A DNA stretch of 26,253 nt, taken from assembly GCA_009881125.1 (NCBI GenBank), contig WXFH01000010.1, forward strand, positions 1 through 26,253. Direction: 5' to 3'. The DNA comes from Acidaminobacter sp. (GTDB lineage: Bacteria > Bacillota_A > Clostridia > Peptostreptococcales > Acidaminobacteraceae). Under the pieces are notes generated by a model, which made no database searches, was not told the origin of the DNA, and saw nothing but the letters and a program-made list of their open reading frames with translations. Both the position numbers and the translations under genes were made by a program. Below, piece by piece: positions 242-18,017 of this stretch (position 1 is the first letter of the stretch; each line of letters starts with the position of its first letter).

Positions 242-3200
242 ATGAAGGTCAAAGTCAATTTCCTCGGGATTCCCAGCGTCACTTTGAACGACAAAACAAT
301 TTCATTTAAGTATCAAAAGGCAGAAGCAGTTTTTTATTATGCAGTCTATCACAAGACCGCAGACCGCTTCAGGCTCATGGCCGTATTCTGGCCGGATGAG
401 CCTGAAGAAAACGCCAGAAAAAACCTGAGAAACGCCCTTTATTCCATACGTCAGGCTTTTGGCTTTCAAGTTTTTGAAAATCTGGGACAGCGTATGATAA
501 CACTTTCAGAACAGATCCAGTTCGAATCCGATCTGATGACAGCTGTCGAAAACGATCAAGAATTTCTTCAGGATTTTGTCGTTAAAGATATCCCGGCCTT
601 TGATGAATGGATTTCTTTTACCCGAGACGCATTTCGTGAACAGACAGTCAGCGAGATTAAGGCAAAGCTTGTTGAAGTACTGAAAACCGGAGGAGATCCG
701 GAATTCCTTTATAAGCGCCTGATCCGACTCGACCCTTATGACGAAGCCTCCGTAAGGGCTCTGATGCTGCATTATGAGAAAGCGAATCAAATCAGCCGCA
801 GTATTGAACTCTATAATCAACTCGAAAAAGTTTTGGATGCTGAACTTTCGTTACAACCTGAACCTGAAACCGTTCAGCTCTTTAAAAGTGTCTTGGGTAA
901 GCGAAGAACCCCAAATAAGAACAACCTTCCGTCTCCCGTTCACTTTATTGGACGAGGAGACGAAATGGAAAGACTGAATCAGTTCCGCCAAAATGTCGCG
1001 GACCAGCAGCAATCCGGTCTTGTGCTAATCTCCGGTGAAGCCGGTGTCGGCAAAACAACATTGTTGAGAAAATTCTCCGAATTATCAGAGGGATTAGGCT
1101 GCCGAGTTATTGAAACCACTTGTCATGAAGGTGATGAAAACCATCGGCTAAGTGCTTGGCATCCCCTGGTGATGAGATTGGGCGACTTGCTTGAGCAAAA
1201 CGACCTTAAACCTGATGGCGTCTACATGGACATTTTATCAAAAGCCTTCCCGCCTTTTATGCAGCCTGACAACAGTACCTCATCTGCTCAGATTGACAGA
1301 CAGGACCCCCTTTATTTTTCTGCGATTCTGAGAGGCCTCGTGGAACTCATTACACAAATTCGAGAGCATGGTCAAGTTCTAATCTGTCTTGAAGATATCC
1401 AGTGGCTGGACGAATGGAGCCTTGATATTCTAGGACGTCTGGCTTCAGAGTCCGGCACCGGAAGAGATCTGATGTTTATCACCACCATACGATCATCCAG
1501 CACTGATGTTGCCTGGTATACAGCTTCCAATCTAAGACGTCTGAAGAACTTCGATCATATTGAGCTTCAACGCTTTTCAAAAGATGAAACAGATCAGTTT
1601 ATTTCAGCCTATCTAGAGGGTATGCCTCTTGATCCTCAAACTCAAACCATAATTTATTCCGAATCAGAGGGTAACGCGCTTTACTTGACCGAAATACTTA
1701 AGTGCCTGCAAGGACACAAATCTTTCAAAGAGCTTCCTCAGAAAATTCGCCATATCTTTAGTTCGCGTTTCAACCGTTTAAGTGAGGATGCCAGAAAATT
1801 AGCAGAACTGCTCTCCATATTTCCCGAAATGATCTCATGGGAAGACATATCCGCCCTTACCGGCAAGGACGATCTAGTCCTGCTGGACATTGCTGAAGAA
1901 CTTATACAGAGCGATATGATCCGAGAAGTACCCCTTGATACCAATGAACTCCAGTACTCCTTTTCCCATCAGAAATTGAAGGACTTTATCTATGAAGGTC
2001 AAAGCGCTACCAAGCGAAGACTTCTTCATAAGCGTATCGGGGAGTATTTCCGCGATCAGCTTACCGGAAAACCATCAGACCGTCTTATTTACCCAAAACT
2101 AATCTATCATTTTGAAAAGAGTGGAGACAAACGTTCCCAACTCCAGTACAGAATCCTGAATCTATTCGACTATCTTGAGCTCAGTCACGAACTCTTCCCT
2201 CGGATTCGAGACCAGGCAATCCTCAGAATGCACAGTCGGCAGGACTATAACACGTCCTTTATTGAGCGGGAAATTGAGAGAATAGATACACTGATGAAAA
2301 TTGTACCAGAGGCAGAAACTCAGGGCCTGATCCAGATAGAGTATCTCAACATGATCAGTCGTTACCACCTGATTAAAGGAGATGTCGATCTAGGCTATTC
2401 ACTGACCCAGACCATGATTAGCCTTGCTCAAAAACTGAACTTGATGGATTTTGTGTACAAAGGTTACCTTCAATTAATTTTTCATTGCATCAATCAACGC
2501 CGGATTCAGATGATGGAGATCTATGTCAATCAAGCCTTTCAAATTTTCAGGAATCATGCCGATAAAGGCGAGCTCGGCGTACTCATCCGCCTGAAAGGCT
2601 ATCTCATGCTGCTGATGAACCGGTTCAAGCACGGCGAGGAACTCCTGATGAGCGCTGCTGAAATTTTCAGCAGATCTGAATATAGAGAGCCCTACGCGTT
2701 GAATCTCGTCGCGTCGTATTATTATCTTGGTGAGAGCAGACGACTGCAAAATGATACCGACGGCGCATTAAACTGGTATCTCAAGGCTGATAAAATTTGT
2801 GTCGACCAAGGTTTTATCAGCCATTTGCCGCTCATCTTATGCGGCAAAGGCATTGCCTTATATGATGCCGACAGAATGGACGAGGCCGCAGAAAATCTCA
2901 GCAGAGCTGTTGATTTCTACGATCACCTGGATTTCAAATGGGGACAAGTCCCCGCTTATGCTTATTGGGCGCTGATCAGCTATCGGGAAGGCAATTATAA
3001 GCGCTGCCTGGAGTATTTGAAGAAAGCTGACGAGCAAGCAACGCTGTTAGGTCGGGTTTATGAAACCGGCTTAATGCTGCGGGTAAAAGCCGAGCTCTGC
3101 AGCCTGGCGCGACACAACAAGCCCACTAAGATTTTAAGCAATTACCTCAATTTTAATGACAATAGTTACTGCAAAGCCGCCATTCGCTACTTTACTGACA

Positions 3201-3277
3201 ATGATAGTTTCACTTACGAAAAGAAGGTGCTTCAGGATATTCACAGCATTTGCGGAGAATGCAGTCACTTCAATTAA
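242..3277 (+). CDS. BTAD-domain / AAA-ATPase / TPR transcriptional regulator
   Basis: A 1011-aa cytoplasmic regulator of the SARP/LuxR-large (MalT-like) type. Residues 1-95 form a winged-helix region and about 100-220 a BTAD helical domain. A STAND/AAA ATPase follows, with Walker A GEAGVGKTT at 265-273 and Walker B-like LICLEDIQWLDE near 380-391. The C-terminal half is helical and TPR-like. An AAGGAG ribosome site lies 8 nt before the ATG. Family members are usually ATP- and ligand-dependent activators of nearby metabolic genes. It converges on the lyase/transporter genes and shares a terminator with them, so it is the natural candidate regulator of that island, although this is inference. 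The inducer is unknown. No C-terminal LuxR-type HTH is evident, so DNA binding would have to come from the N-terminal domain. Confidence 0.85.
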   Translation: MKVKVNFLGIPSVTLNDKTISFKYQKAEAVFYYAVYHKTADRFRLMAVFWPDEPEENARKNLRNALYSIRQAFGFQVFENLGQRMITLSEQIQFESDLMTAVENDQEFLQDFVVKDIPAFDEWISFTRDAFREQTVSEIKAKLVEVLKTGGDPEFLYKRLIRLDPYDEASVRALMLHYEKANQISRSIELYNQLEKVLDAELSLQPEPETVQLFKSVLGKRRTPNKNNLPSPVHFIGRGDEMERLNQFRQNVADQQQSGLVLISGEAGVGKTTLLRKFSELSEGLGCRVIETTCHEGDENHRLSAWHPLVMRLGDLLEQNDLKPDGVYMDILSKAFPPFMQPDNSTSSAQIDRQDPLYFSAILRGLVELITQIREHGQVLICLEDIQWLDEWSLDILGRLASESGTGRDLMFITTIRSSSTDVAWYTASNLRRLKNFDHIELQRFSKDETDQFISAYLEGMPLDPQTQTIIYSESEGNALYLTEILKCLQGHKSFKELPQKIRHIFSSRFNRLSEDARKLAELLSIFPEMISWEDISALTGKDDLVLLDIAEELIQSDMIREVPLDTNELQYSFSHQKLKDFIYEGQSATKRRLLHKRIGEYFRDQLTGKPSDRLIYPKLIYHFEKSGDKRSQLQYRILNLFDYLELSHELFPRIRDQAILRMHSRQDYNTSFIEREIERIDTLMKIVPEAETQGLIQIEYLNMISRYHLIKGDVDLGYSLTQTMISLAQKLNLMDFVYKGYLQLIFHCINQRRIQMMEIYVNQAFQIFRNHADKGELGVLIRLKGYLMLLMNRFKHGEELLMSAAEIFSRSEYREPYALNLVASYYYLGESRRLQNDTDGALNWYLKADKICVDQGFISHLPLILCGKGIALYDADRMDEAAENLSRAVDFYDHLDFKWGQVPAYAYWALISYREGNYKRCLEYLKKADEQATLLGRVYETGLMLRVKAELCSLARHNKPTKILSNYLNFNDNSYCKAAIRYFTDNDSFTYEKKVLQDIHSICGECSHFN

Positions 3278-3284
3278 AGCAGGC

Positions 3285-3346
3285 AAAAAAAGGACGACCT
3301 TAGTGGTTCGAGGAGCTCGAACACTTAGGTCGTCCTTTCTTATTTT
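3285..3346. terminator. Bidirectional Rho-independent terminator
   Basis: A near-perfect long stem pairs 3289-3312 with 3316-3338 (core AAAGGACGACCT / AGGTCGTCCTTT). An A-run lies on the left and a T-rich tract on the right. It sits between the convergent regulator and lyase genes and can end transcription from both strands. Confidence 0.9.
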
Positions 3347-3364: not shown

Positions 3365-4882
3365 TTACAGTTCTCCTGCAATTGCCCTGAGTCCATCAAG
3401 AAGCTCATCACTCTTTAGAACTTCATAAGCTGCCTGAATATCCGGTGTCAGCGGCCTATCCATTGACAAAAATGGTACTTTATCACGAATCGCATTGTAA
3501 ATCAATTTTGAACCCTTGCCCATCTCAATGCCCGCTCTCAGATCGACAGCCTGTGCTGCGTGCATTGCCTCGATCCCTAAAATATAAAAGGCGTTGTCAA
3601 TAATTTTCTCTGTCTTTTCGATGACATAAGGCGCATTGGTCGCATGGTCTTCAATGTCTCCAGCAACAGAGAAGTAGTCTGTATTAGCCGGATTCATCAG
3701 ATGGCGGATCTCACCGTCCAAAGAGGTAAACGGCTTTTGAATCGTCTGATACGCCTGGACTTCGCCTTCACGCGGACTTAAAAATCTGGACAAGTTTGTG
3801 AACTGCGGTGTGGACAGTTTAATCGTTCTGTGACAAGCACTTCTGGCCAGATGCGCCACTGCCTGCCCCAGCATTTCAAAACCAAGCACCCAATTCGTGA
3901 TTTCAAAGTTGCAGCAAGAGATAATTTCTTCATTTTCAAGAATAATACAAGGATTATCATCTGTAGCATTGAGCTGGATGGTCAATAATTCCCGAATATA
4001 GTCAAGTGCATCCAGAACCGTTCCGTTGATTGCTGAGGCACAGCGGAAACCCAGCGGATCCTGCAGCGTTTTGGTGATGCCCTTCTTCTCGAGATAACTG
4101 CCATCCAGAAGTTTTCGCATGCTCTCAGCACATAGGATCTGAGATTTCATTCTTCTGGCTGCGTTCGGTTCAGGTCTGAGCGGCGTGATATTCCCATCCA
4201 GCCCTTCCACGGAAAGCGCATAGACGGCATTGGCCACTTCTGTAAGGCGTTTGGCCTTCTCAAATACCAAGGCACCGGTTCCCGCTGCGAGGGCGTTGGA
4301 AGAGACAATAGAGAGTCCGTCCTTAGGTCCGAGAACTATAGGCTTCAACCCCTCAGCTTCAAGTGCTTCCATAGCTGCCACACGGCTGCCCTTGTAGAAC
4401 ACATCCCCTTCACCAATCATTGCCAGCCCAACATGTGACAGATTGACAATATCGCCTTCACCAACACTGCCTCTGGCAGGAATGACCGGATGGATGCCGC
4501 GGTTCAGAAATTCCTTGTACATTTCAACAATTTCGAGTTGAATGCCGGTTCTGGCGCTTAATAGCGTATTCAGACGCGCCAGGAGTACCGCTCTGACCTT
4601 CTCTTCTGAAAGTGCTGGTCCAATCGAACAGCAATGGGCATAAATCAGATTCCTATTATATTGCTCAAAAAAACTCCCGAAGACATGCTTATCTTTGTTC
4701 CAGCCTACACCCACGGTGAACCCATAAATTGGCACATCACTGTCTGCCAGCCGGTAGACCAGATCTCTGGTCTTCTGCAGCTGTTCAATAGTTTCGCTGG
4801 CAATCTCAAGCTGAACGCTGCCGGTTGAAATCCTGTAAGCCTCTTCCAGAGTGAGATTGCGGCCGTCCAAAATCATTTTCAT
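3365..4882 (-). CDS. MIO-less HAL/PAL-family lyase, probable ergothionase-like
   Basis: A 505-aa protein with the aromatic amino-acid lyase fold. It keeps the family landmarks GSVG (138-141), LSH (148-150), QDPLGFR (274-280), DDNP (308-311), CNFE (324-327) and NPANTD...EDH (397-413). The MIO-forming triad is absent: the usual GSVGASGD reads GSVGEGD, one residue shorter and without Ala-Ser-Gly. The usual NGT of the active site reads SSN (194-196). Tyr53 (IYGFTVGVG) is kept, and lysines lie at 63, 65 and 383 where ordinary HAL is not basic. Lack of MIO is the reported feature of ergothionase, which releases trimethylamine from ergothioneine to give thiourocanate. The adjacent BCCT transporter fits a betaine substrate. 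I chose the ATG at 4882 because GGAGG lies 9 nt upstream; an in-frame ATG at 4954 would add 24 basic residues without homology. It is not a standard HutH, and no hutU or hutI is present. Fold is certain, substrate inferred. Confidence 0.8.
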   Translation of the reverse strand: MKMILDGRNLTLEEAYRISTGSVQLEIASETIEQLQKTRDLVYRLADSDVPIYGFTVGVGWNKDKHVFGSFFEQYNRNLIYAHCCSIGPALSEEKVRAVLLARLNTLLSARTGIQLEIVEMYKEFLNRGIHPVIPARGSVGEGDIVNLSHVGLAMIGEGDVFYKGSRVAAMEALEAEGLKPIVLGPKDGLSIVSSNALAAGTGALVFEKAKRLTEVANAVYALSVEGLDGNITPLRPEPNAARRMKSQILCAESMRKLLDGSYLEKKGITKTLQDPLGFRCASAINGTVLDALDYIRELLTIQLNATDDNPCIILENEEIISCCNFEITNWVLGFEMLGQAVAHLARSACHRTIKLSTPQFTNLSRFLSPREGEVQAYQTIQKPFTSLDGEIRHLMNPANTDYFSVAGDIEDHATNAPYVIEKTEKIIDNAFYILGIEAMHAAQAVDLRAGIEMGKGSKLIYNAIRDKVPFLSMDRPLTPDIQAAYEVLKSDELLDGLRAIAGEL

Positions 4883-4956
4883 TTTTGTCTTCCTCCATTT
4901 CCTGCGCTTCTTTATTGATCTGGCAGAATTTGCATCACTCAGATAAATAGTCATTT

Positions 4957-4994
4957 AGAAACGGGCTTCATCCCGAAGGGATCAGCCCGTTTCT
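4957..4994 (-). other. Intercistronic UUCG-capped hairpin
   Basis: Eleven-base arms AGAAACGGGCT and AGCCCGTTTCT (4957-4967, 4984-4994) enclose a second stem ATCCC/GGGAT. On the minus strand that stem closes on a C(UUCG)G tetraloop. It lies between the transporter stop and the lyase ribosome site. There is no real U-run after it, so it may be a processing or mRNA-stabilising element, or a weak terminator, rather than a full stop. Confidence 0.6.
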
Positions 4995-5009: not shown

Positions 5010-6671
5010 CTATTCCTCCGCCACCGGTACCAGTGTTTCAGACTTCATGATTTCACCCGAGGGCTCGTCATCAGGTTCTTCAATGATCCTGTCCATGAAC
5101 CAGCACTTAAAGAACGACACCAACTGAATGGCGAAAATGAACAACACGACAAATCCACTCGCGGCCGCCAATGCCTTGACACCGTCGACGCCTTGAACCC
5201 CGCCGCCGAAGGCTGCCATAACAATGGCGACAGCGCCAAGGGCTACACCCCAAACCACTTTGACCATCGCAGGTGGTTCGGTGCCGATAGGAACGTCCTT
5301 CATACACATTGAACCAATATTGGTCAAAGTCGCATCCGCCGCAGTAATAAAGGAAACCAAAATGACGACTATGTTAAATGGAATAATAATTCTGCCCAGG
5401 CCAAACGGCAGGTTGTCGAGGAATGCCCAAAGGGCCGCGACCGCGCCGCCTTCATTGATGACGTTGATGAGATCCACAACACCAGTGGTTTGCATATGAA
5501 TAGCGCTGCCGCCCCAGACGGAGAACCAGACAATACCAAATATTGATGGAAGAATCCAGTTCACGATCATGTATTCACGAATAGTACGTCCATAGGAAAT
5601 CATAGCCAGGAAGATGCCGGTAACAGGCGCGAAGCCAACCCAGAATGCCCAGTCGAAAAGCGTCCAATACATGGTCAGCGCTTCACCGCCTATGTCGATA
5701 GGATCAAGTCCCCAGCGGAAGAAATTCTGAAGCCATTCCGCAACACCTGCTGTGCCAATTCTAAGAATGTAGACCGTTGGACCCGTGACGAACAGAAGTG
5801 CCAAAAGGAAATAATAGAACCATGCGTTCATTTTGCCAAGTCTTGCAAGACCTTTTTCAAGGCCCACATAAGATGAAAACGTGAACATACAGATGATGAA
5901 AATACCAATCCCTGCAAACAGCGGAACGCTGGATTCAATACCGTAGGCACCTTTTAAGCCCGACATGACTAAGGTAATACACATGGTAATGCCTGTAGTT
6001 ATGCCGATGGCAAGACCCAGCATAGCGAGCATATCCACGATGCCGGCAAATAAACCTTTAGTGACCTTCTCTCCAAAAAGCGGCTTCAAGGTGGACGTGA
6101 CAGCCAGACGCTCCCGCTTATTAAAGTAAATGTAAGCGACTAAGAGTCCGCAGAAGGCATAGATCGCGTAAGGGACAAAAGTCCAGTTATAGAAGGAACG
6201 CGCCATGGCAAAGACAGCCGCTTGAGTGGTATTAGGCTCAATCCCCAGTGTATTCAGCTCGCCCCAGACGTTTCCGTAATAGATCAAGGGCTCATTGACA
6301 CCCCACGTGACAATGCCGGTGGCTACCCCGCCTGTCAGGGTCATGGCGAACCAGGTACCAAAGCTGAATTTAGGCTTGGCGTTTCTCCCACCCAGACGAA
6401 TGTTGCCATACTTGGAAAACATCATAATCACGGTAAAGACAAACGCGGCCATAATGGTCCACTGGAACAGCCAACCGAAATTGCGCAGAGACCAGAAGAA
6501 AAAGTTCATGACACTCGTTGTTAAAAGTTCTTTGTTGACGATGCCTATGACAGCAGCACTGCCAATGACCAAATAGGCCGGCGCGAAAACTTCCCAGCGG
6601 ATGGCGTTTTTTTCCAGCTTCGTTCCCTGGTTAAACTTTTTATTCCCTTTCGACTCTTGCTTATTGCTCAC
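5010..6671 (-). CDS. BCCT-family (betaine/carnitine/choline) transporter
   Basis: A 553-aa, 12-TM secondary transporter. The BCCT signature is clear: WTLFDWAFWVGFAPVTGIFL followed by GRTIREY. The TM3 segment GGVATGIVTWGVNEPLIYYG corresponds to the glycine-rich substrate and ion-binding stretch of BetP/CaiT. The family moves quaternary-ammonium zwitterions in symport with Na+ or H+ or by exchange. The start is GTG, with GGAGG 7 nt before it. The lyase follows 127 nt downstream on the same strand, so the two are probably co-transcribed and the transporter likely brings in the lyase substrate. Ergothioneine is itself a trimethyl betaine, which suits this family. Short hydrophilic tails make an osmosensing role like that of BetP less likely. 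Exact substrate is unproven. Confidence 0.9.
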   Translation of the reverse strand: MSNKQESKGNKKFNQGTKLEKNAIRWEVFAPAYLVIGSAAVIGIVNKELLTTSVMNFFFWSLRNFGWLFQWTIMAAFVFTVIMMFSKYGNIRLGGRNAKPKFSFGTWFAMTLTGGVATGIVTWGVNEPLIYYGNVWGELNTLGIEPNTTQAAVFAMARSFYNWTFVPYAIYAFCGLLVAYIYFNKRERLAVTSTLKPLFGEKVTKGLFAGIVDMLAMLGLAIGITTGITMCITLVMSGLKGAYGIESSVPLFAGIGIFIICMFTFSSYVGLEKGLARLGKMNAWFYYFLLALLFVTGPTVYILRIGTAGVAEWLQNFFRWGLDPIDIGGEALTMYWTLFDWAFWVGFAPVTGIFLAMISYGRTIREYMIVNWILPSIFGIVWFSVWGGSAIHMQTTGVVDLINVINEGGAVAALWAFLDNLPFGLGRIIIPFNIVVILVSFITAADATLTNIGSMCMKDVPIGTEPPAMVKVVWGVALGAVAIVMAAFGGGVQGVDGVKALAAASGFVVLFIFAIQLVSFFKCWFMDRIIEEPDDEPSGEIMKSETLVPVAEE

Positions 6672-6883: not shown

Positions 6884-9136
6884 TTAGTAATCACTGAGCG
6901 CTTCAATAATGCGCTCCGGCGTTGCCGGTAAAACTGACAGCCGAGTCCCGAGGGCGTGATTGATGGCGTTGATGACCGCAGGTGCCGTGGCCACGGAAGA
7001 GGATTCTCCAATACTCTTCGCCCCATAGGGTCCTCCCGGTTCTCCCGCCTCTATGAGGATGACCTCCACGGGCGGCATTGAAGGCGCATTGATGACGTGA
7101 TACTTGGAAAAGCTTTTGTTCTTCACGCTGCCATCTTCGTTCAGAACAATTTCTTCGCAGAGCGCGTAGCCCAGGTTCATCTGGATTCCGCCGTAGATCT
7201 GTCCTCTGACGAATTCCGGATTGATGGCTTTTCCAATGTCATGGGCTGCAACGATTTGCTTCACCTGTACAAAGCCCGTCCAGGTATCCACCTCCACTTC
7301 AACAAAGTTCGCCCCATAGGAGCCAGGGTTAGCACTGGCCTGATAGTCAAAGCTGACACAAAGGGTTTCTCCAAAGCTTCGATGACATTTCGAAGCCAAT
7401 GTCGGAAGATCCATAAGGGGTAAGCCGGAAAGATCCGTGATGATGCTGTCTTTGAGCTGTAATGTGACCATCGGCAAATCCAAAAGCTCAGAAGCACGCT
7501 TGAGAATTTTTTCTTTCAGCTGCTCGGCACCTTGCCTCGCGGCTTCACCGCAGACAAAGGTCACGCGGCAGGCCTGAGTGCCGGCCGGATCATAGGGCGA
7601 CCTTAGGGTATCCGCCTCAAGCACTTTGACTTTTTCAAGCACTACACCCAGAGCTTCTGAAATGATCTGGGACGCCACAGTCAGTGTGCCGCACCCAAGG
7701 TCATGAAGGGCAGAATTGACCAGGATGGTCCCATCCGGCATTAGGGTCAGCTGAATGGCGGTGAATTCAGGAAATCCGCCAAAATAGCCGTTGCCATGAA
7801 CAATAGCCGCCATACCGACGCCTGTTCTGTAGCGGCCGCTGCCCGGAGCCTTAAAATATTTTTCTTTCCAGCCAAAGCGCGCAGCGCCCTGCCTCAGGCA
7901 GGCTTCAATCTGGACGTTCCCGAGGGCGGGACCACCCATGGGGTCCGCGTCGCTGCCGCTGACAATGTTGGCCAGTCGAAAATCAAGGGGATCGAGTTTA
8001 AGTACTCTGGCAGCGTTCTCAATGTTGATTTCCGTGAGCGCATGAATCTGAGGCGAGCCGTAACCTCTGGCCGCGCCGCCTACCGGCGTATTTGTGATGA
8101 CCGCTCTGGCTCGGTACCGCTGGCTTTCCATTTTGTAGAGCCTGACGGATTTTTTGAGCATGGCCATGGAAACCGCGGCCCCATTGCTGAAATAGGCTCC
8201 TGTATCCGTCACGACATCCAGGTCCCGGCCCAGGATTTTACCCTCTTCACTGACAGCAAGCCGGATCCGGCCTCTGACAGAGTTGCGCCTTCTGCTGGAA
8301 ACTATGCTCTGAGCTCTGTCCATGGTCATGAGCACCGACTTCTTAAGATCATAGGCCAGATAGCCGCACAGCGGTTCGAGAACCGGTTGACTTTTGCCGC
8401 CAAAGGAACCGCCTGTGGCCGTTTTGATAATTCTGACCTGGGTCATTGGAAGCCCTGTGATTCTCGACAGCATCATTTGGACTTGAAATGTGATTTGACA
8501 AGGTGTTTTAAGGGTCAGGACCCCATCCTCCATAGAAGCCAGACAAACGTGGCATTCTATAGCTGCGTGGTGCTGGGCAGGTGTGGTCACTGTGTCTTCT
8601 ATTATGTGCGGCGCTTTTGAAAAGACCTGATCAAAGCTTCCGAACTCCTTAACGGTATCAAAAGGCACATTGCCATAGCTGTGAATACCAGGTGTGCTTT
8701 CATCCAGCGCGGATTCTATGTCGATCACCGCTGGCCGCGGCTCATAGTCAATCCGAATGCGGCGGGCTGCAGTGATCGCTGCTTCGTCAGTCTCAGCCAC
8801 AACTATGGCTACCCGGTCGCCGTCATGTTTGGGATCCATGGTCAGCAGCGGTTCGTCCTCCAGGTCGCTCATGTCCATTAGCCAATTGTGTGCGCTATAG
8901 AGGACTTTCGGCACATCAGCGGCTGTATAGATTTTTACGACGCCGGGCACTTTAAGGGCTTCTGCTGAATCTATGCTCAAAATTTTCGCGCTTGCCTGAT
9001 CTGAGGTGACCAGCCGGGCGTACAGCATGCCTGCTGCTGTGTAATCACCTGTATACTTGATTGTTCCGGTAACTTTTTCAAGACCATCCAGCCGAAGGAC
9101 GGACTGGCCGACAACATTATATTTTATTGTTTCCAT
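6884..9136 (-). CDS. Molybdopterin-binding subunit, xanthine dehydrogenase family
   Basis: A 750-aa large catalytic subunit of a three-subunit molybdenum hydroxylase (XdhA/CoxL/HcrA type). The Mo-pocket motif is GGSFGGK (242-248), followed by ARGYG (356-360) and GAKSIGE (705-711), whose Glu711 matches the universal catalytic base. In purine xanthine dehydrogenases the residue after GGK is a substrate-binding Glu; here it is Ser249, so xanthine is unlikely to be the substrate. The Arg of the RGYG motif is kept. ATG lies 4 nt after the FAD-subunit stop behind a GAGGG site, so translation is coupled. Such enzymes hydroxylate or reduce N-heterocycles, aldehydes or aryl-CoA. An imidazole or thio-imidazole product of the neighbouring lyase is a possible substrate, by inference from location only. 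Confidence 0.88.
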   Translation of the reverse strand: METIKYNVVGQSVLRLDGLEKVTGTIKYTGDYTAAGMLYARLVTSDQASAKILSIDSAEALKVPGVVKIYTAADVPKVLYSAHNWLMDMSDLEDEPLLTMDPKHDGDRVAIVVAETDEAAITAARRIRIDYEPRPAVIDIESALDESTPGIHSYGNVPFDTVKEFGSFDQVFSKAPHIIEDTVTTPAQHHAAIECHVCLASMEDGVLTLKTPCQITFQVQMMLSRITGLPMTQVRIIKTATGGSFGGKSQPVLEPLCGYLAYDLKKSVLMTMDRAQSIVSSRRRNSVRGRIRLAVSEEGKILGRDLDVVTDTGAYFSNGAAVSMAMLKKSVRLYKMESQRYRARAVITNTPVGGAARGYGSPQIHALTEINIENAARVLKLDPLDFRLANIVSGSDADPMGGPALGNVQIEACLRQGAARFGWKEKYFKAPGSGRYRTGVGMAAIVHGNGYFGGFPEFTAIQLTLMPDGTILVNSALHDLGCGTLTVASQIISEALGVVLEKVKVLEADTLRSPYDPAGTQACRVTFVCGEAARQGAEQLKEKILKRASELLDLPMVTLQLKDSIITDLSGLPLMDLPTLASKCHRSFGETLCVSFDYQASANPGSYGANFVEVEVDTWTGFVQVKQIVAAHDIGKAINPEFVRGQIYGGIQMNLGYALCEEIVLNEDGSVKNKSFSKYHVINAPSMPPVEVILIEAGEPGGPYGAKSIGESSSVATAPAVINAINHALGTRLSVLPATPERIIEALSDY

Positions 9137-9140
9137 CCCA

Positions 9141-10001
9141 TCACCCTCGATACTCTGAAATAGCCTGTTCCACTATAGACACCGCGACCGCCTTCACTGC
9201 CGAACGCTTGTAAGCCAGTGAGGCTCTTCCCGGAATTGCCTGTTCAACCTGCTGGACGAATAGTTCAATAAATGCCTCTGTCTTTAGTGCATCCAGCGTC
9301 ATGCCGGTTAGTCCCTCAGAGACCAGGCTTGAATGGAAGCCTCTCTGCCCAAGTGATCCGAATGCCACTCTGGCCTCTCTGATGACGCCGCCGCTGAAGC
9401 TGAAAATCCCGGCGCAATTGACTTTAGCTATGGTCACAGACGCCCGCGAGCCAATCTTACAGTAGCCGCCTGCCTTGCCTAAGTTCCAGGCAGGTATGAG
9501 AAATGCCGTCACCACTTCGGTTTCGTCGATCAGGGTTCTTCCAATCCCCGTCACAAACGCCTCGACTTTCATCCTTCTCGTCGCCCCGTTTGCTTTCATC
9601 AGCTCGACACTGGCATCCAGGGCGATCAGCGCCGGAATGGTATCCGCGCACTGGGCTGCGTTAGCCACGTTTCCGCCGATGGTCGCCCGATTCCGAATCT
9701 GAGTGGACCCCACTTGGGACGCCGCGCAGGATAGAACTTTCGCAGCATGTTGTACCAGCGGTGATTCCCAGAGCTCTGTCATGGTGCACATTGCGCCTAT
9801 TCGGAGCCCTTCTTCGTTAATGTCACAGCTTTTCAGCGCTTCCATATGGGACAGATCAATAATCAATGCCTCTTCCGGCGGATTGGCTCTCATGCGGATC
9901 ATGACGTCGGTTCCGCCGGCGACCATGATTTTTTTGCCGGTCCCCTGAAGGGATTCAAGTAAAGCTGCCATATTATCCGGCTGTATGATTTTATTGGCCA
10001 T
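9141..10001 (-). CDS. FAD-binding subunit of molybdenum hydroxylase
   Basis: A 286-aa CoxM/XdhB-type flavoprotein that passes electrons between the 2Fe-2S subunit and an external acceptor. The FAD-contact motifs VAGGTDVM (about 27-34) and TIGGNVANA (about 107-115) are intact, and the C-terminal part is the usual CO-dehydrogenase flavoprotein C-domain. The length is normal. There is no insertion carrying the 4Fe-4S cluster found in hydroxybenzoyl-CoA reductase. Its ATG overlaps the end of the 2Fe-2S gene by 11 nt, and the Mo subunit starts 4 nt after its stop. This tight layout is expected for a stoichiometric complex. Confidence 0.9.
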   Translation of the reverse strand: MANKIIQPDNMAALLESLQGTGKKIMVAGGTDVMIRMRANPPEEALIIDLSHMEALKSCDINEEGLRIGAMCTMTELWESPLVQHAAKVLSCAASQVGSTQIRNRATIGGNVANAAQCADTIPALIALDASVELMKANGATRRMKVEAFVTGIGRTLIDETEVVTAFLIPAWNLGKAGGYCKIGSRASVTIAKVNCAGIFSFSGGVIREARVAFGSLGQRGFHSSLVSEGLTGMTLDALKTEAFIELFVQQVEQAIPGRASLAYKRSAVKAVAVSIVEQAISEYRG

Positions 10002-10461
10002 GAACCGCTTCCTCCTTCAGAGATTCCACCGCTTTGATGATGGGATGATACCCCGTGCACCGGCAGAGATTGCCTTCTATCGCTTTTATGACCTCTTCCT
10101 TGGATGGATCCGGCCGTTGAAGCAGCAGCGCCTTGACCGACATCAGCATACCCGGCGTGCAATAGCCGCACTGGATGGCGCCATTGTTTATAAACGCCTC
10201 CTGAAGTCTGTCCAGTTCACCACCCTGCTGGAGCCCTTCCGTCGTCAGCACCTCACACCCGTTGACCTGCACTGCCAGCATGGTGCATGACGTTACCGCC
10301 CTCTGATCCACAATAATAGTGCACGCGCCGCACTCGCCTTCGCCGCAGCCTTCCTTGACGCTGGTCAATCCAAGACGGTTGCGCAGCATGTCTATCAGTC
10401 TCTCGAGGGGTTCGACCTCAACTTCTCTATTTTCATGATTAATGGTCAGGTTAATTTTCAT
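9991..10461 (-). CDS. 2Fe-2S subunit of molybdenum hydroxylase
   Basis: A 156-aa CoxS/XdhC-type iron-sulfur subunit with two [2Fe-2S] clusters. The plant-ferredoxin-like cluster has EGCGEGECGACT and a distal Cys in VTSC; the helical-domain cluster has QCGYCTPG and LCRCTGYHP. The start at 10461 (MKINLTINHENREVEV) has GGAGG 5 nt upstream and matches normal family length. An in-frame start at 10566 would add 35 residues unlike any family member. A 150-nt gap separates it from the DUF169 gene upstream, and I see no convincing promoter there. It is probably in the same transcript. Confidence 0.92.
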   Translation of the reverse strand: MKINLTINHENREVEVEPLERLIDMLRNRLGLTSVKEGCGEGECGACTIIVDQRAVTSCTMLAVQVNGCEVLTTEGLQQGGELDRLQEAFINNGAIQCGYCTPGMLMSVKALLLQRPDPSKEEVIKAIEGNLCRCTGYHPIIKAVESLKEEAVHGQ

Positions 10462-10611
10462 CTCTGCCTCCCGCTTACCATCCTTGATCCAAAGCCCTAA
10501 ACTTGAATCAAAGAAGCGATATGTCTTTCTTTTCACAAAATCACTGTATCTTAGTGCCGACTTCAAATCGTCTAATAAATCAAACTATTTTAACTTTTCT
10601 GTATTGTTGCC

Positions 10612-11397
10612 CTACAGGTCATTACCTGAGGTTTTAAAGTAAGTGCTGTTGATCATGATCTTCCCAGCGACTTCGTCATCTCCGAGGCGTTCCAGAATGG
10701 CCTCTTTTCTTTCGTTGGGTTCGCATGGATTAACGGTCTTCACCAGACCATCATGGATCATGCTCAGCATTCCATACGGCAGGCCAATGCCCATTTCATA
10801 GTCGTGCCATTTGGCTGCATACCTGGTGTTGGAACAAAGGAGGGACACATTCATGTCATTGGTGTCATAGGGCGTCGCGGTGCATTCTGAACAGATCCCG
10901 GAGTTGGCAGCAATTTTGATATTCTTTGGTGTTCCCCTGTAGTACACGTAGCTCTGTGTCACGCGCATGGCCTGATAAGGATTGACCAGCATCAATACCA
11001 CGTCCGGACGGTTCTCAAAAGCCTCCAGCGGCTTGACTACCACCGCTGTTGCCTCATGATCGAGAAATGTAACGTCTTTCTGAACATTTCTTGCCGTCCC
11101 CAGGCTGTCATAAATCCCGAAGCTATAATAAATTCTTCCGGAGATGGCCCGGGCATCAGGTTTGACGAGTCCCAGTGCTTTGGCCGAGCCCACACACAGA
11201 AAATTGTCCAGATCAGCCTTGAAGCTCTTTCCTTCAGAAGCCATTCTGACCATACTGCAATAGGACATTTTGTACTTTACTCTTGGTGCAGACTCTTCCT
11301 CAAAGTCACGCTTGTCGAATATAAATTTCACGCCTACAAGTTTGCGTTCCAGGCCTAAAAGTTTCTCAATTTGAGTGCCAACGTTCCGTTTAAACAT
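10612..11397 (-). CDS. DUF169 family protein
   Basis: A 261-aa cytoplasmic protein of the DUF169 family, whose biochemical role is not established. Conserved-looking features include VGVKF near the N terminus, paired cysteines in SGICSECTATPY, and AMRVTQSYVYY. GGGAGG lies 7 nt before the ATG. Its position as probable first gene of the molybdenum-hydroxylase operon suggests an accessory, redox or substrate-handling role. That is inference from location. The CxxC pair could bind a metal or cluster. Confidence 0.8.
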   Translation of the reverse strand: MFKRNVGTQIEKLLGLERKLVGVKFIFDKRDFEEESAPRVKYKMSYCSMVRMASEGKSFKADLDNFLCVGSAKALGLVKPDARAISGRIYYSFGIYDSLGTARNVQKDVTFLDHEATAVVVKPLEAFENRPDVVLMLVNPYQAMRVTQSYVYYRGTPKNIKIAANSGICSECTATPYDTNDMNVSLLCSNTRYAAKWHDYEMGIGLPYGMLSMIHDGLVKTVNPCEPNERKEAILERLGDDEVAGKIMINSTYFKTSGNDL

Positions 11398-11425
11398 TAA
11401 ATCGCCTCCCTATAGTATTAATATC

Positions 11426-11437
11426 AGACAGGTGTCT
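11426..11437 (-). promoter_or_regulatory. Short inverted repeat upstream of DUF169 gene
   Basis: AGACA-GG-TGTCT is a 12-bp inverted repeat 29 nt upstream of the DUF169 start. It could be an operator for the molybdenum-hydroxylase operon. No confident -35/-10 pair is visible. Evidence is symmetry and position only. Confidence 0.25.
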
Positions 11438-11491
11438 ATAAAAAGGCTAAAGAATATTGAAAGGATTTCCGGCATGAGGTGTTGTGAGGTT

Positions 11492-11604
11492 GGTGACGCG
11501 GACAAAGTTGGAGTTGGTGACGCGGACAACTTTCAACTTGGTGACGCGGACAGAGTTGGACTTGGTGACGCGGACGAAAATAAATCCGGTGCCAGAGCTT
11601 GCGA
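11492..11604. repeat. 24-bp tandem array (GGTGACGCGGAC type) with fixed end sequence
   Basis: Four direct units of exactly 24 bp (11492-11515, 11516-11539, 11540-11563, 11564-11587) each start GGTGACGCGGAC and carry a variable 12-bp second half. The array ends in GGTGCCAGAGCTTGCGA (11588-11604). Similar arrays lie at 14910 and 21776. A short reading frame crosses it, but it has no ribosome site and its peptide only reflects the repeat. I treat it as non-coding. Confidence 0.85.
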
Positions 11605-11634
11605 AAATCATTCTCAGTTGGGATACGCTTACAA

Positions 11635-11770
11635 GGAAAAACACCCCCTGAACCAACAGGCCGCCGGCCTGTTGGTTCAGGGGGTGTTTCCTTCTTGGAA
11701 GACGGTTCCTGGGAAACCGGCTTCCAAGCTTCGACTGGAGGAAGGCGGTGTCCGGCACCGGCTTCCTACC
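11635..11770. repeat. Large palindrome plus hairpin element; chrA terminator
   Basis: Two perfect 25-bp arms (11639-11663 and 11665-11689) are separated by one base, forming a near-continuous 51-bp palindrome. It is followed by a second hairpin (CTTGGAAGACGGTTCC with GGAAACCGGCTTCCAAG) and the tail GGTGTCCGGCACC-GGCTTCC. On the minus strand the palindrome runs into TTTTTCC, so it can terminate the chromate-transporter transcript. The right half recurs at 1-98. Confidence 0.85.
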
Positions 11771-11781
11771 TTTTTTTACCT

Positions 11782-12954
11782 TCACCTCACAAACCCCGCC
11801 ACCAGTGCCAGCAGCACTATGATTGGCGCAGGAACTTTCTTCGTCAGTAAAAGGACAATCGTGACCGCCGACACCAGCAAGTTGTCTAGCTGAAAACCGC
11901 TCTTCTGCATGACAATCACCGCGGCCACGGCAATCATGCCGCCCGCGATGGCATTGATCCCCTTCAGGGCAATCTTGATGCCCCGGATCTGCCTTAGGCG
12001 CTCCCAGACGGGATAAACGAAGTAGATTAGCAGCAGGCCCGGAAGGAAAATGCCGATGCCGCTCAACACAGCCGCCATCACCTGAGTAAACGTCCCGTAG
12101 TTTCTGGCAGCCATGCCGCCCACATAGGCGCTGAAGCTGAACATTGGGCCCGGGAGGCCCTGCACGAGACCGTAACCCGTCAGGAATTCCTGGTTGTTCA
12201 TATATTGGCGGATGTCCACCATTTCACTGTACATCACCGGCACGACGACCTGTCCGCCGCCGAAAACCAGGTAGCCATATCTATAGAAGCTTTCAAAGAG
12301 GTGCACCAAGATATTGTCCCAAGTCAGGGTCAAAATGACACTTCCGAGAGCGATCCCTGCGAATGCCGCCAAATAGCGCCATGGCGGGCTCAGCTTCACG
12401 TGGTTCCATACGTTTCTTTCACCTGACGCCAGCACGCTGATGGCGCCGCCGATTAATAGGACCATCGGGAAAATCCAGGGAGATCTGATGAAGTAGGTCG
12501 TCACAGCGCCAAAAATCATCAGAATGGCCGTCAGACGATTGGTCACGACCTTCCTGCCTATCTTGAACGCGGCGACAACGATAAAGCCCACCGCCAGCGG
12601 GCCAATATACCTAAGGCTGTCAGTCGAAATATTAAGCAAGTCGAGGAATTGATACAAAAATGACAGAATTGTCATCAGCGTTAGTACCGGAAGTGACCAG
12701 ACCAGCATGGTCAGGAAGCCCAGCATTGGACCGCCCACTTTGTGGCCAACAGCAACTATGGTCTGAGTGCTGGTCGGGCCAGGCAGGATGCTGCACAGCG
12801 CGACGAGCTCGATCAGCTCTTCCTCGGTCAAGTGCTTCTTTTTGGTGACCAATTGATCTATAAATACGCCTATATGGGCCTCCGGGCCGCCATAGGCGCC
12901 GAGTGAACATACAAAGACGTCTTTGAGAAAGCTGTTCCATTTATGGTTGTTCAT
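11782..12954 (-). CDS. ChrA-family (chromate ion transporter) membrane protein
   Basis: A 390-aa polytopic membrane protein with both CHR half-domains in one chain. Domain 1 has YGGPEAHIG and ALCSILPGPTSTQT; domain 2 has FGGGQVVVPVM and GLVQGLPGPMFSFSAYVGG. The two halves are a repeat of one fold with about 10-12 TM segments. Characterised members expel chromate, while many anaerobe homologues have unknown anion substrates. AGGAGG lies 4 nt before the ATG. The gene stands alone: FetB ends 101 nt upstream on the same strand, and a repeat element with terminator ability follows it. Family is sure, chromate specificity is not. Confidence 0.85.
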   Translation of the reverse strand: MNNHKWNSFLKDVFVCSLGAYGGPEAHIGVFIDQLVTKKKHLTEEELIELVALCSILPGPTSTQTIVAVGHKVGGPMLGFLTMLVWSLPVLTLMTILSFLYQFLDLLNISTDSLRYIGPLAVGFIVVAAFKIGRKVVTNRLTAILMIFGAVTTYFIRSPWIFPMVLLIGGAISVLASGERNVWNHVKLSPPWRYLAAFAGIALGSVILTLTWDNILVHLFESFYRYGYLVFGGGQVVVPVMYSEMVDIRQYMNNQEFLTGYGLVQGLPGPMFSFSAYVGGMAARNYGTFTQVMAAVLSGIGIFLPGLLLIYFVYPVWERLRQIRGIKIALKGINAIAGGMIAVAAVIVMQKSGFQLDNLLVSAVTIVLLLTKKVPAPIIVLLALVAGFVR

Positions 12955-13026
12955 AATGCCTCCTTAGTTATAAGGTTTTCTGGTGGCAGCACATCGGTTT
13001 AGGATACCCCTTTGCTTGGGAGATTC

Positions 13027-13040
13027 GTGACCATCGGCAG
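13027..13040. repeat. Single arm of GACCATCGGCA repeat
   Basis: GTGACCATCGGCAG matches the arms of the inverted-repeat elements at 15161, 20261 and 21890, but no partner arm is visible within 100 bp. It looks like a decayed or half element in the fetB-chrA gap. Confidence 0.55.
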
Positions 13041-13055
13041 AAGCTTTTGTCTTTA

Positions 13056-13832
13056 TCACACCAGCTGATCCTGATCGTTGAAGAAGCTCTTGTAGCCAAA
13101 CTGCAGCAGGAGAATGACCGTCAGCGACACCGCCCCCAGGATGCCCAGCATGATGGCGATCTGGTACATGACCGCCGTGGTGGGCGCTGTCCCGGACAAG
13201 ATCTGGCCCGTCATCATGCCCGGCAGGGAGATGACGCCCATGCCCAGCATGGCATTGATGGTCGGCATGATCGCCGCGTCAAAGGTGGAGTTAATGATGT
13301 CGTGGGTGGCCATCTTTGGGGTCGCCCCCAGGTTTAGCGCTTCCTCCACAAGCTGGCGCTGGGTCGTCATGCCATCCAGCAGGGATTTTACCCCCAGGGA
13401 GATGCCCGTCATGGAATTCCCAATCATCATGCCCGCAAGGGGGATGAAGTACTGGGGCTGATACCAGGGATCAATTTGGATCACGACCAGTATAAAGTAG
13501 AAAATACAAGAAAAAGTCCCAGCCGCCATGGCGCCTGCAACGGTCTTTTTCAAAGAGGTTGACAGGCGACCCTTGAACTTCTGAAACACTGTCCGGATCG
13601 CGTAGGCCACCATGAAGCTGATGATCAGCAGCGTGAGCCATGGGCTGGGCGTTCCAAAGATGAAAGTGAGCGCGTAGCCCGTCAGGATCAGCTGCACCGT
13701 CATCCTGAGGGACGCCAGCAGCAGCTCTCGCTCCCTGCGGATCCCCCGTTTGATGAGGATGCCCAGCACTACCAGAACGAAAACATAGGACAGTGCTACC
13801 TGCCAAATGGAAAGCTCCATGACACCGCTCAT
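13056..13832 (-). CDS. fetB: FetB-like ABC transporter permease (UPF0014)
   Basis: A 258-aa integral membrane protein of the UPF0014/FetB family with about 7 TM segments. Family-typical stretches include IPLAGMMIGNSMTG, the cytoplasmic loop LVEEALNLGATPKMAT and LPGMMTGQILSGTAP. E. coli FetAB is linked to iron export and oxidative-stress tolerance. The start overlaps the ATPase stop by four bases (ATGA), so the two are translationally coupled. An alternative start five codons in (MELSIW) is possible. Substrate in this organism is inferred from the family. Confidence 0.85.
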   Translation of the reverse strand: MSGVMELSIWQVALSYVFVLVVLGILIKRGIRRERELLLASLRMTVQLILTGYALTFIFGTPSPWLTLLIISFMVAYAIRTVFQKFKGRLSTSLKKTVAGAMAAGTFSCIFYFILVVIQIDPWYQPQYFIPLAGMMIGNSMTGISLGVKSLLDGMTTQRQLVEEALNLGATPKMATHDIINSTFDAAIMPTINAMLGMGVISLPGMMTGQILSGTAPTTAVMYQIAIMLGILGAVSLTVILLLQFGYKSFFNDQDQLV

Positions 13833-14467
13833 GACCTCGCCCCCCTGTCTTTTATTTTTCCGTCCTCAAGTTCAATGATCTCGTCTGCGAACTGCGCCGC
13901 CACCGCCTTGGAATGGGTCACCATGATGATGGACTGCCCGTCCCGGCGCGCCTTTTCCACCACCAGCCTGATGACGGATTCCTCCGTGACGTCGTCCAGC
14001 GCCGAGGATGGCTCGTCCAGCAGGAAGACCGCCGGCGCTAGTAAAAATACTCTGGCGATGACTAGCCGCTGCTTCTCCCCACCCGACAAAAGTCGCACCT
14101 CAGTCTCCAGCGTTTTATTCAAATGGACCTGCTGCAGCATTTCCAGCATTGCTTTCTCTGACGGCAGCGCTTTATTCTGAAATTTGAAGCCAATCTCCAG
14201 GTTGTGTCTGAGGTCGCCATTAAAGATCGCAGGCTGCTGAGAGAGTAGAAGGACCTCACGTCTTAGTTTCACTGACGGGATCTCCTTCAGCTCCGTACCG
14301 TTGTAAGTGATGCTCCCCTCTGTAGGTGAAATGGATTTATTGAGGAGCCGGAGTAGCGTGGTCTTTCCGCTGCCGCTGGCCCCTGCTATGACCGTCACGC
14401 CCGGCTTGATGCTGAGTTCTGGGATCTCGAGGACTTCTTGATATTTTAAATTTCGAATTTCAAACAT
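13829..14467 (-). CDS. fetA: FetA-like ABC transporter ATP-binding protein
   Basis: A 212-aa ABC ATPase with Walker A GASGSGKTT (29-37), the Q-loop region LLSQQPAIF, signature LSGGEKQRL, Walker B VFLLDEPSSALD and the switch His in MVTHS. All catalytic parts are present. GGAGG lies 6 nt before the ATG at 14467, which I prefer to an upstream in-frame start at 14488. That start lies inside the padR gene and adds seven unrelated residues. It begins one base after the padR stop and overlaps fetB, forming a compact padR-fetA-fetB operon. It powers the FetB permease, probably for iron or another metal. Confidence 0.88.
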   Translation of the reverse strand: MFEIRNLKYQEVLEIPELSIKPGVTVIAGASGSGKTTLLRLLNKSISPTEGSITYNGTELKEIPSVKLRREVLLLSQQPAIFNGDLRHNLEIGFKFQNKALPSEKAMLEMLQQVHLNKTLETEVRLLSGGEKQRLVIARVFLLAPAVFLLDEPSSALDDVTEESVIRLVVEKARRDGQSIIMVTHSKAVAAQFADEIIELEDGKIKDRGARS

Positions 14468-14909: not shown

Positions 14910-15093
14910 GTGTCTGACACCGAGTTCAATTGAGTGTCTGACACCGAGTTCACTTGAGTGTCTGACACCAAGTTCACTTGAGTGCCTGACACCAAGTTCA
15001 ACTGAGTGCCTGACACCAAGTTCAACTGAGTGCCTGACACCAAGTTCAACTGAGTGCCTGACACCAAGTTCATTTCAGTGCCAGAGCTTGCGA
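14910..15093. repeat. 24-bp tandem array (GTGTCTGACACC type), 7 units
   Basis: Seven direct units of exactly 24 bp run from 14910 to 15077. Each begins GTGTCTGACACC or GTGCCTGACACC and continues with an AGTTCAnnTGA-like half. The array ends in GTGCCAGAGCTTGCGA (15078-15093). The next bases (TCTCAGTGGGGATAC) resemble those after the array at 11492 (TCTCAGTTGGGATAC). A reading frame on the minus strand would encode an octapeptide repeat, but it has no ribosome site. Confidence 0.88.
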
Positions 15094-15210: not shown

Positions 15211-16716
15211 TTATCCCACACGCTTTTCCAACTTCCGCCCCAAAGCAATCTCCACATCGTCAAAAATCCTCGTAGCAGCAATGGCATCCTCTTCGAGCGC
15301 CAGCTTCGCGTATGCCTCCAGCGCCTTCAAATCTTTCGCGCCATGATGCAGCGCCACAGGACCCTTGATGCACCCGCCCTCACAGGCCATCCCTTCAATG
15401 AAGTTGCCTTCCAGACGATTGGCCTTTGCCAGCTTCAAGAGCTTGTCGCAGGCCTTGATGCCATCGCCGGCGACAGCAACGACTTTCACGTCTGAAGCAG
15501 GTGTCAATTTCAGCGCCGTGGCCACCACCGCCTTGGACAGGCCCCCTGCACCGGCAAAGATCCGCCCGTAGTAGGAAGCGTTGTTCATCGGCGACTCCGG
15601 AAGCTCTTCAAGGCGGATCTCCCGGGCATCCAGTAATGAAATCAATTCCTCAAAGGTCATCACATAATCCGTGATCCCTGCGAGCTCTGGCAGCGCCTTT
15701 TCTGCCTTCTTGGCAATACACGGGCCTATGAACACCGTCACTGCAGCCGGATCCACCGCTTTGATGAGCTTCGACGCCGCAATCATGGGGGACACGGTCC
15801 CAGAGACATTTTCAAGAACCTGAGGATGCTTCTTGTGAATAAAGTCCACAAAAGCCGGGCAGCAAGAACTCGTCATATACCGGTGGTGCTCCAAATGACT
15901 AAGGAGCTCCCCAGCCTCATGCACCGCCACCAGATCCGCGCCCAGGGCTGCCTCTACCACATCTCTGAATCCCAGACGCTTAATGCCGGTGATGATCTGC
16001 CCAAGATTCGCATAGTTAAACTGGGACGCGAACGCCGGGGCAATGACCGCATAAACCTGCGGCGCGCCGGGCTGCCGAGCGGCCATCAGCTTTCGAATAA
16101 TGGGCACAATTTCAGATTTGTCCTGAATTGCTCCAAAGGGACAGTTATACACGCAAGCCCCGCACTGGATGCATTTCTTATAATCGATCACCGCTTTTTT
16201 CTGAGCATTGATGGAAAGCGCCTCCACCGGGCAAGCCTTCATACAGGGGCGCAGAGTGTCTACAATGGCGTTGTAGGGGCACGCCGACTGGCAGCGCCCG
16301 CATTCCACGCACTTGCTTTCATCGATCATCGCCTTGCCTTGGAGCACCTGAATCGCGCCAACCGGACAGGCCGCCTGGCAGCGGTGGGCAAGACAGCCCC
16401 GGCAGGATTCTGTCACCTTGTAGCGGCTGACAGGACACTGATCGCAGGCCGCATCCAGGACTTCGACAACCCCCGGGATCGCCGGCGTGCCACCCATGGC
16501 CATTTTGATCCGCTCCTTGGTCACAGCCCGCTCATGATGGATACAGCACCTGAATCTGGGTTCCGGCCCCGGATTCACAACATTAGGGATCCGCACATAA
16601 AGTGCCTCCAGCTGATCCTGAAAGGTCAGCCTGGCGACCTCTTTCAAAACTTCATATTTGACGAGCTGCACTTGATTCTCAAAGGTTCTCACAACGACCA
16701 CCTCATTTTCAAACAT
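15211..16716 (-). CDS. Group B-like monomeric [FeFe]-hydrogenase
   Basis: A 501-aa iron-sulfur protein. Several ferredoxin-like Cys clusters occupy 91-192 (for example CxxCxxxxCxxxCP at 105-118, CVECGRCQSACP at 136-147 and CIQCGACVYNCP at 182-193). The H-cluster domain follows with L1 TSSCCPAF (Cys285, Cys286), L2 FIGPCIAKKAE (Cys333) and L3 MACEGGC (Cys445, Cys449). All four H-cluster ligands and the proton-relay Cys are present. The L2 and L3 forms match group B rather than the classical MPC / CxxxCxxGGG of group A. Physiological roles of group B are poorly known; H2 evolution or uptake with ferredoxin is expected. I chose the ATG at 16716 over a TTG at 16734 that lacks a ribosome site. It is the last gene of a signalling-type operon, separated from the phosphatase by a 139-bp repeat-bearing gap. 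Confidence 0.85.
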   Translation of the reverse strand: MFENEVVVVRTFENQVQLVKYEVLKEVARLTFQDQLEALYVRIPNVVNPGPEPRFRCCIHHERAVTKERIKMAMGGTPAIPGVVEVLDAACDQCPVSRYKVTESCRGCLAHRCQAACPVGAIQVLQGKAMIDESKCVECGRCQSACPYNAIVDTLRPCMKACPVEALSINAQKKAVIDYKKCIQCGACVYNCPFGAIQDKSEIVPIIRKLMAARQPGAPQVYAVIAPAFASQFNYANLGQIITGIKRLGFRDVVEAALGADLVAVHEAGELLSHLEHHRYMTSSCCPAFVDFIHKKHPQVLENVSGTVSPMIAASKLIKAVDPAAVTVFIGPCIAKKAEKALPELAGITDYVMTFEELISLLDAREIRLEELPESPMNNASYYGRIFAGAGGLSKAVVATALKLTPASDVKVVAVAGDGIKACDKLLKLAKANRLEGNFIEGMACEGGCIKGPVALHHGAKDLKALEAYAKLALEEDAIAATRIFDDVEIALGRKLEKRVG

Positions 16717-16789
16717 TTTCCAAACCACTTCCAAACAATCTTTACGTATTCATTTTTAAAAATCCATCTTTACAAATCTTTCATTCACT

Positions 16790-16844
16790 CTTCCAGCACT
16801 CTCCAACCACACTCCAACCACTCTTCAACCACACCCCAACCAAT
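16790..16844. repeat. 11-bp tandem repeats before hydrogenase gene
   Basis: Five head-to-tail 11-bp units of the pattern CTCCAACCACA run through the phosphatase-hydrogenase gap. Similar TTCCAAACCAC and TTCCAAACAA stretches follow at 16717-16740. Spacing near one helical turn would present repeated G-rich faces on the minus strand, so multi-copy regulator binding is possible. No promoter consensus is clear. Confidence 0.6.
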
Positions 16845-16855
16845 CTCTAAAATCC

Positions 16856-18016: not shown

Positions 18017-18017
18017 C

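Follow-up and report, generated by a model that had tools for sequence, protein, structure and literature searches.

Ergothioneine is an antioxidant that ergothionase (ergothioneine trimethylamine-lyase) splits into trimethylamine (TMA) and thiourocanate. The Treponema denticola enzyme (6S7J, 6S7Q) has the fold of the HAL/PAL ammonia-lyases and lacks their MIO cofactor. In the pathway of gut bacteria, ergothionase is followed by a xanthine oxidase homologue that desulfurises thiourocanate (Feng et al., JACS 2025, cited in PMC12771579 and PMC13405746). This homologue is summarised in PMC12771579 as cleaving an aromatic C-S bond reductively in ergothioneine catabolism, and PMC13405746 credits Feng et al. 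with showing that thiourocanate desulfhydrase releases H2S. The Ert pathway begins with the same enzyme family and uses thiourocanate hydratase, a DUF917-type thiohydantoin desulfurase, ErtD and ErtE. Among the loci examined here it occurs mostly in Paenibacillus and other Bacillales.

The window analysed here is a stretch of 26,253 nucleotides from Acidaminobacter sp. (contig WXFH01000010.1), taken from a genome of 3.2 Mb in 66 contigs. It very probably holds one more ergothionase, in an operon that fits a published route. Its lyase resembles T. denticola ergothionase in full-length homology, fold and absence of MIO, and is encoded together with a molybdoenzyme in place of the hydratase and DUF917 desulfurase of the Ert pathway. 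The probability is estimated at about 85% that the lyase is an ergothionase and that the operon would turn ergothioneine into TMA and thiourocanate, and the latter into H2S and urocanate, which passes into the hut pathway.

The MIO-less lyase

The candidate ergothionase (505 amino acids, PF00221) is encoded at 3365..4882 on the minus strand. The plus strand of 3365-4882 contains stops, and the coding frame occupies exactly these coordinates on the other strand. Its ATG at 4882 is preceded by ggagg; for a longer form from the in-frame ATG at 4954, the relatives aligned offer no counterpart. The MIO site reads GSVGEGD, one residue shorter than GSVGASGD and without the Ser of Ala-Ser-Gly, and the NGT motif is replaced by SSN, as read again from the 505-residue translation. 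Both substitutions had been reported in the earlier note.

Lyase relatives were found at 131 loci in named bacterial genomes, and comparisons use the best 80 (46–74% identical), 78 of which yielded an open reading frame for a MIO-less lyase. With the window protein and its counterparts from T. denticola and T. phagedenis added, the alignment has 81 rows. The one-residue shortfall is common to all 81, mostly as G-[EAQ]-[GA]-D, which confirms the loss of MIO and rules out a HutH carrying a sequencing error. Y53, K63, H83, R280, K383 and E411 are invariant throughout the 81 rows, E411 being the EDH Glu that the earlier note had described as kept. The lysines it had listed at 63, 65 and 383 are all present in the window lyase, and K63 and K383 belong to the invariant set, but position 65 varies (K in 46 rows, R in 26, another residue in nine), and K65 was dropped as a conserved lysine. 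Y53, R280 and the EDH Glu recur in both HutH proteins of the same genome, whereas K63 and K383 align there with Ser and Tyr; the lysines, SSN and the deletion are thus the distinctive traits of the window lyase. Judged from conservation, Y53, K63, K383 and E411 are likely its catalytic residues. Aligned with T. denticola ergothionase (47% identity), as had been proposed, all four have equivalents, the two lysines included; unlike the window lyase, that enzyme reads SCN and SSIGEGD at the two motifs.

Among solved structures, phmmer ranked T. denticola ergothionase 6S7J best (E 1.9e-153), followed by HAL (4.7e-66). Eight NCBIfam models match the window lyase, all under their cut-offs. HutH reaches 353 of 539 bits, 186 short, vs 681 and 702 bits for the two MIO-bearing HutH of the genome, which pass and are 30–32% identical to the window lyase. 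With the MIO tripeptide absent and the NCBIfam score under the cut-off, the protein falls outside HutH, and it has the ergothionase combination of HAL/PAL fold and missing tripeptide. Its predicted model (mean pLDDT 89; the K63 loop, residues 59–67, under 50) retrieves 6S7J first in a structure search (47% identity, TM 0.93). HAL structures score TM 0.89–0.94, and Pseudomonas putida HAL gives a similar TM at 27–28% identity, so the fold alone does not decide what the lyase is.

In a tree of 89 proteins the 81 MIO-less rows, with the verified ergothionase among them, split with support 100 from the other eight (two HutH, and six lyases of a different unusual type). The clustering with MIO-containing HutH that the earlier note had named as a counter-sign did not occur. 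This is a quick-method tree with two HutH rows, its long branches meet at the root (as the program warned), and L069 and L083, which are without a lyase reading frame, were omitted. The window lyase lies within a 30-row set containing T. denticola ergothionase (SH-aLRT 97), and forms with L013, L014 and L015 a four-row set (support 100).

Conserved columns were taken from 29 rows with ergothionase context. Twelve are of T. denticola type (the T. denticola protein, T. phagedenis, and ten loci at 75–86% identity), and 17 come from loci with urocanase-family and DUF917 genes, among which the NCBIfam check recognised both genes in L014 and L035, the hydratase in L075 and the desulfurase in L043. 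The window lyase keeps 84 of the 85 columns invariant in these rows, vs 52 kept by one HutH of the genome and 49 by its second MIO-less lyase (contig C6, described below); many of the 85 hold in all relatives, and they therefore mark the family more than the substrate. Sequence, tree, invariant columns and gene context together support the earlier proposal of an ergothionase or histidine-betaine lyase rather than a HutH. The expectation that automatic annotation would choose a HutH-type name is borne out by the 240 homologues listed; the names shown for them include histidine ammonia-lyase, HAL/PAL/TAL family ammonia-lyase, phenylalanine ammonia-lyase and aromatic amino acid (ammonia-)lyase, and ergothionase is absent among them.

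The operon and its molybdoenzyme

The operon runs on the minus strand from 10566 to 3365. It opens with three subunits ([2Fe-2S], FAD, Mo) of an enzyme resembling xanthine dehydrogenase, continues with a BCCT family carrier and closes with the lyase. The [2Fe-2S] subunit (9991..10566; PF01799, PF00111) is listed with a TTG start; the true start is probably further in, NCBIfam matches beginning at residues 32–48. It is followed by the FAD subunit (9141..10001; PF00941, PF03450), the Mo subunit (6884..9136; PF02738, PF20256, PF01315), which is a candidate thiourocanate desulfhydrase, and the carrier (5010..6671; PF02028, 369 bits; GTG start as listed, exact start unsure), a candidate importer of ergothioneine or another betaine. 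A strong minus-strand hairpin without a T-run (4957..4994; -25.7 kcal/mol, z -6.0, 200 shuffles) fills part of the gap between carrier and lyase, and is a possible mRNA processing or stability element. Behind the lyase, a terminator-like hairpin with a T-run (3285..3340, minus strand; -35.1 kcal/mol, z -7.8, 200 shuffles) separates it from the convergent gene of a BTAD/AAA/TPR transcriptional activator (242..3277, plus strand; PF03704, PF13191), a candidate regulator. The DUF169 gene upstream on the same strand (10612-11397) was rejected as part of the operon, its relatives occurring in no other locus.

Neighbourhood reading frames were called mechanically (greedy, at least 80 amino acids) and clustered by blastp single linkage. 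Gene labels follow these clusters unless a cut-off is named, and the urocanase cluster mixes plain HutU with thiourocanate hydratase. Among the best 80 of the 131 loci, 54 have at least one molybdoenzyme subunit (Mo in 51, related FAD in 51, related [2Fe-2S] in 45), 21 have a DUF917 protein and six have neither. Molybdoenzyme and DUF917 occur together in these 80 only at L017, where the DUF917 protein, at 77 bits, is far below the 440 required of a desulfurase; the three DUF917 proteins that were scanned in loci lacking the molybdoenzyme exceed this value. The near-exclusive presence of one or the other offers a simple rule to predict the downstream route. A BCCT carrier is found in 48 of the same 80 loci (45/54 with molybdoenzyme, 3/26 without) and a related BTAD regulator in 31 (30/54 and 1/26, respectively). 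The locus of T. denticola itself was replaced by close orthologues from other genera, a near-identical gene being absent from the 39 and 195 genomes searched. Where the lyase is 75–86% identical to T. denticola ergothionase (ten loci), a Mo subunit and a BCCT are always present; in one of the ten, L086, FAD and FeS subunits were not found in the locus. The window locus likewise presents a gene context of ergothioneine catabolism.

By Pfam domains and best solved match, the Mo-FAD-FeS genes belong to the xanthine oxidase family. They stay under the XdhABC equivalog cut-offs (590/780 bits for the Mo subunit against XdhA, and 184/310 and 184/217). The best solved match of the Mo subunit is the alpha subunit of 4-hydroxybenzoyl-CoA reductase, an enzyme presented in PMC12771579 as a reductive member of this family. 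In the Mo-subunit tree, 47 of the 50 sequences from other loci (best 80 of 131) group with that of the window, L067 and L091 on a long branch inside its set. Outside lie those of L013 and L017 (another branch) and L086 (far off), which are 29–30% identical to the window's, together with two other molybdoenzymes of the window's genome. These two come from four MoCoBD_1 matches in that genome, the window's lying apart from them; the fourth, L112, yielded no reading frame with the required motif and was omitted. Over 51 loci including the window, lyase and Mo-subunit distances correlate with r 0.70 (highest of 2000 permutations, 0.17), a value to which shared genome descent contributes and for which one short Mo subunit was omitted. 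Given the Mo tree and this correlation, it is unlikely that the molybdoenzyme stands beside the lyase by chance or is the genome's enzyme for purines. From gene context and the published enzyme of such kind, we infer that the Mo-FAD-FeS enzyme is a candidate thiourocanate desulfhydrase; its likeness to the gut enzyme lies in the description that the citing papers give. Oxidative hydroxylation of thiourocanate by the molybdoenzyme was also considered, and was replaced by reductive sulfur removal following the account in PMC12771579.

Proposed route and alternative readings

In the proposed route the BCCT carrier would import the betaine, and the lyase would remove TMA from ergothioneine to leave thiourocanate; MIO may be dispensable because trimethylammonium by itself leaves readily. 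The molybdoenzyme would then reductively take the sulfur off thiourocanate as H2S, the presumed product being urocanate, which could enter the histidine-utilisation pathway through HutU, HutI and glutamate formiminotransferase encoded elsewhere in the genome. Three HutU, one HutI and a glutamate formiminotransferase of the genome score over their cut-offs; for thiohydantoin desulfurase it gave no match, and for thiourocanate hydratase none that exceeded the cut-off. Five of the best 80 of 131 loci combine a molybdoenzyme with a urocanase-family gene (L038, L042, L050, L086 and L079). In the first four, which were scanned, the urocanase scores above the cut-off of plain HutU and below that of thiourocanate hydratase, and in L038 a HutI exceeds its cut-off as well; L079 has a partial gene at a contig end. 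HutU-type urocanases without Ert genes at cut-off fit urocanate, not thiourocanate, being handed on. Two very similar urocanate hydratase genes of the genome stand in tandem near HutI, formiminotransferase and HutH (L009 12096-15867 and L011 1843-3903, both minus), and a third, longer type lies on contig C49.

The substrate is more probably ergothioneine than another histidine betaine, on the evidence of the kept columns and the gene context; the lysines, the same in 81/81 rows, cannot separate the two. A TMA-lyase for hercynine or ergothioneine sulfonate, as a sister function within the ergothionase clade, is improbable. T. denticola ergothionase also acts on ergothioneine sulfonate, the four-row set of the window is distinct (100), and Maledivibacter (L013, L026) and Dethiosulfatibacter (L017, L037) have two lyase paralogues each, pairs that could reflect two substrates; L013, whose lyase is 74% identical to the window's, and L017 carry a different molybdoenzyme. 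Yet 84 of the 85 ergothionase columns are kept, and hercynine would give urocanate directly, making needless the sulfur-removing enzyme that the operon nevertheless has. The sister lyase of L014 (73% to the window's) also speaks for ergothioneine, with a thiourocanate hydratase about 4 kb away (1010 bits vs a cut-off of 930) and a thiohydantoin desulfurase 5.6 kb away (613 bits vs 440); against it, a molybdoenzyme is absent from that stretch. L014 is not clean evidence, since an apparently broken copy of the hydratase and desulfurase genes lies between the intact ones and the carrier, and the sequence comes from a MAG that carries the label Betaproteobacteria; it is also among the 29 defining rows.

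A histidine or aromatic amino acid ammonia-lyase working without MIO would share the Pfam family, Y53, R280 and the EDH Glu with HutH, and would account for HAL structures matching as well as 6S7J. It is very improbable, against a HutH score so far below those of the genome's own HutH, a split from HutH at 100, Ser and Tyr in HutH where the lyase has K63 and K383, and an operon shared with a betaine carrier. The missing superfamily cofactor could also mean that the protein is inactive or regulatory, which is the least credible of these readings when the candidate catalytic residues are invariant in 81/81 rows, the neighbourhood is conserved and the nearest relative among solved structures is an enzyme, listed as ergothionase. 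An active ergothionase remains the preferred assignment.

Carrier, distribution and other elements of the genome

The best solved match of the window BCCT is a BCCT named trimethylamine transporter. Among the BCCTs of 44 other loci, that of L013 is the most similar to it (82% identity), followed by six from Synergistaceae and spirochaetes (67–70%), by twelve from L038, L048 and the ten T. denticola-type loci (56–62%) and by that of L060 (50%). The other 24 reach 28–37%, and L015, a locus of the nearest relative, is one of them at 35%. In Corynebacterium glutamicum, deletion of the BCCT gene betP had a marginal effect on ergothioneine production, according to PMC12689799.

The genome contains a second MIO-less lyase on contig C6 (G000:C6; locus L010 8827-10470, minus) with the motifs GSVGYLSVEAH, SGT and EDY. 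Next to it are a BCCT (10477-12318, 52% to the window's) and a sigma-54-type activator (12412-14148). It shares 37–38% identity with the two HutH of the genome and 27% with the lyase of the window, and its best solved match is HAL (1.1e-90; ergothionase 2.3e-40), which hints that it lost MIO independently of ergothionase. The lyase tree was set aside as proof of independent loss, having only three groups and its root on the outgroup. It is a rather doubtful, speculative proposal that the operon BCCT would be a dedicated ergothioneine importer, apart from EgtUV-type ABC systems, and the C6 enzyme a separate betaine lyase (e.g., for hercynine) with independent loss of MIO. The GSVGYLSVEAH motif also occurs beside the ergothionase-type loci L060, L072, L076, L079, L080, L081 and L087. 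Tandem pairs of short, diverged lyase-like proteins were seen at L015 (15017-17850), L017 (153-2472, minus) and L029 (8668-11463). In the L015 pair the match of one protein to the HutH profile is chiefly to its first part (STGLSDL, NGS) and that of the other chiefly to the remainder, and such pairs may form a two-subunit lyase without MIO.

Among the genomes compared, one other, G198, falls in the same genus group, and its lyase has the coordinates of that in the Acidaminobacter hydrogenoformans genome. Of the 61 genomes searched, the source genome among them, four have a lyase of this kind with E at most 1e-180, and the trait is therefore patchy. The best 80 of the 131 loci include Peptoniphilus, Acidaminococcus, Oscillibacter, Clostridium, Sporomusa, Synergistaceae and spirochaetes. 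In a human study that included a small database search with one Burkholderia ergothionase (PMC13405746, 2026), the enzyme is reported as restricted to few genera, and the same source grants that divergent homologues may be missed. What is worth noting is the wide spread of the lyase under other names, together with the associated carrier; counting these MIO-less lyases alters estimates of the bacteria able to produce TMA, and probably also H2S, from ergothioneine.

The window also contains 24-bp tandem repeats at 14910-15082 and 11490-11575. The 18-base core of the 14910-15082 array occurs 54 times in the genome with at most two mismatches (reversed control 0). At the end of the window, 25989-26253 holds 1.9 identical tandem copies of a 138-bp unit, and the window is about 200 bases longer than the contig there, so an assembly-end effect is possible. 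On the minus strand, 15211-19974 encodes two proteins with FeFe-hydrogenase large-subunit and ferredoxin domains, one of them with FeS and weak PAS matches, as well as a SpoIIE-type phosphatase and a [2Fe-2S] thioredoxin-like protein; by its domains this looks like a sensory hydrogenase group.
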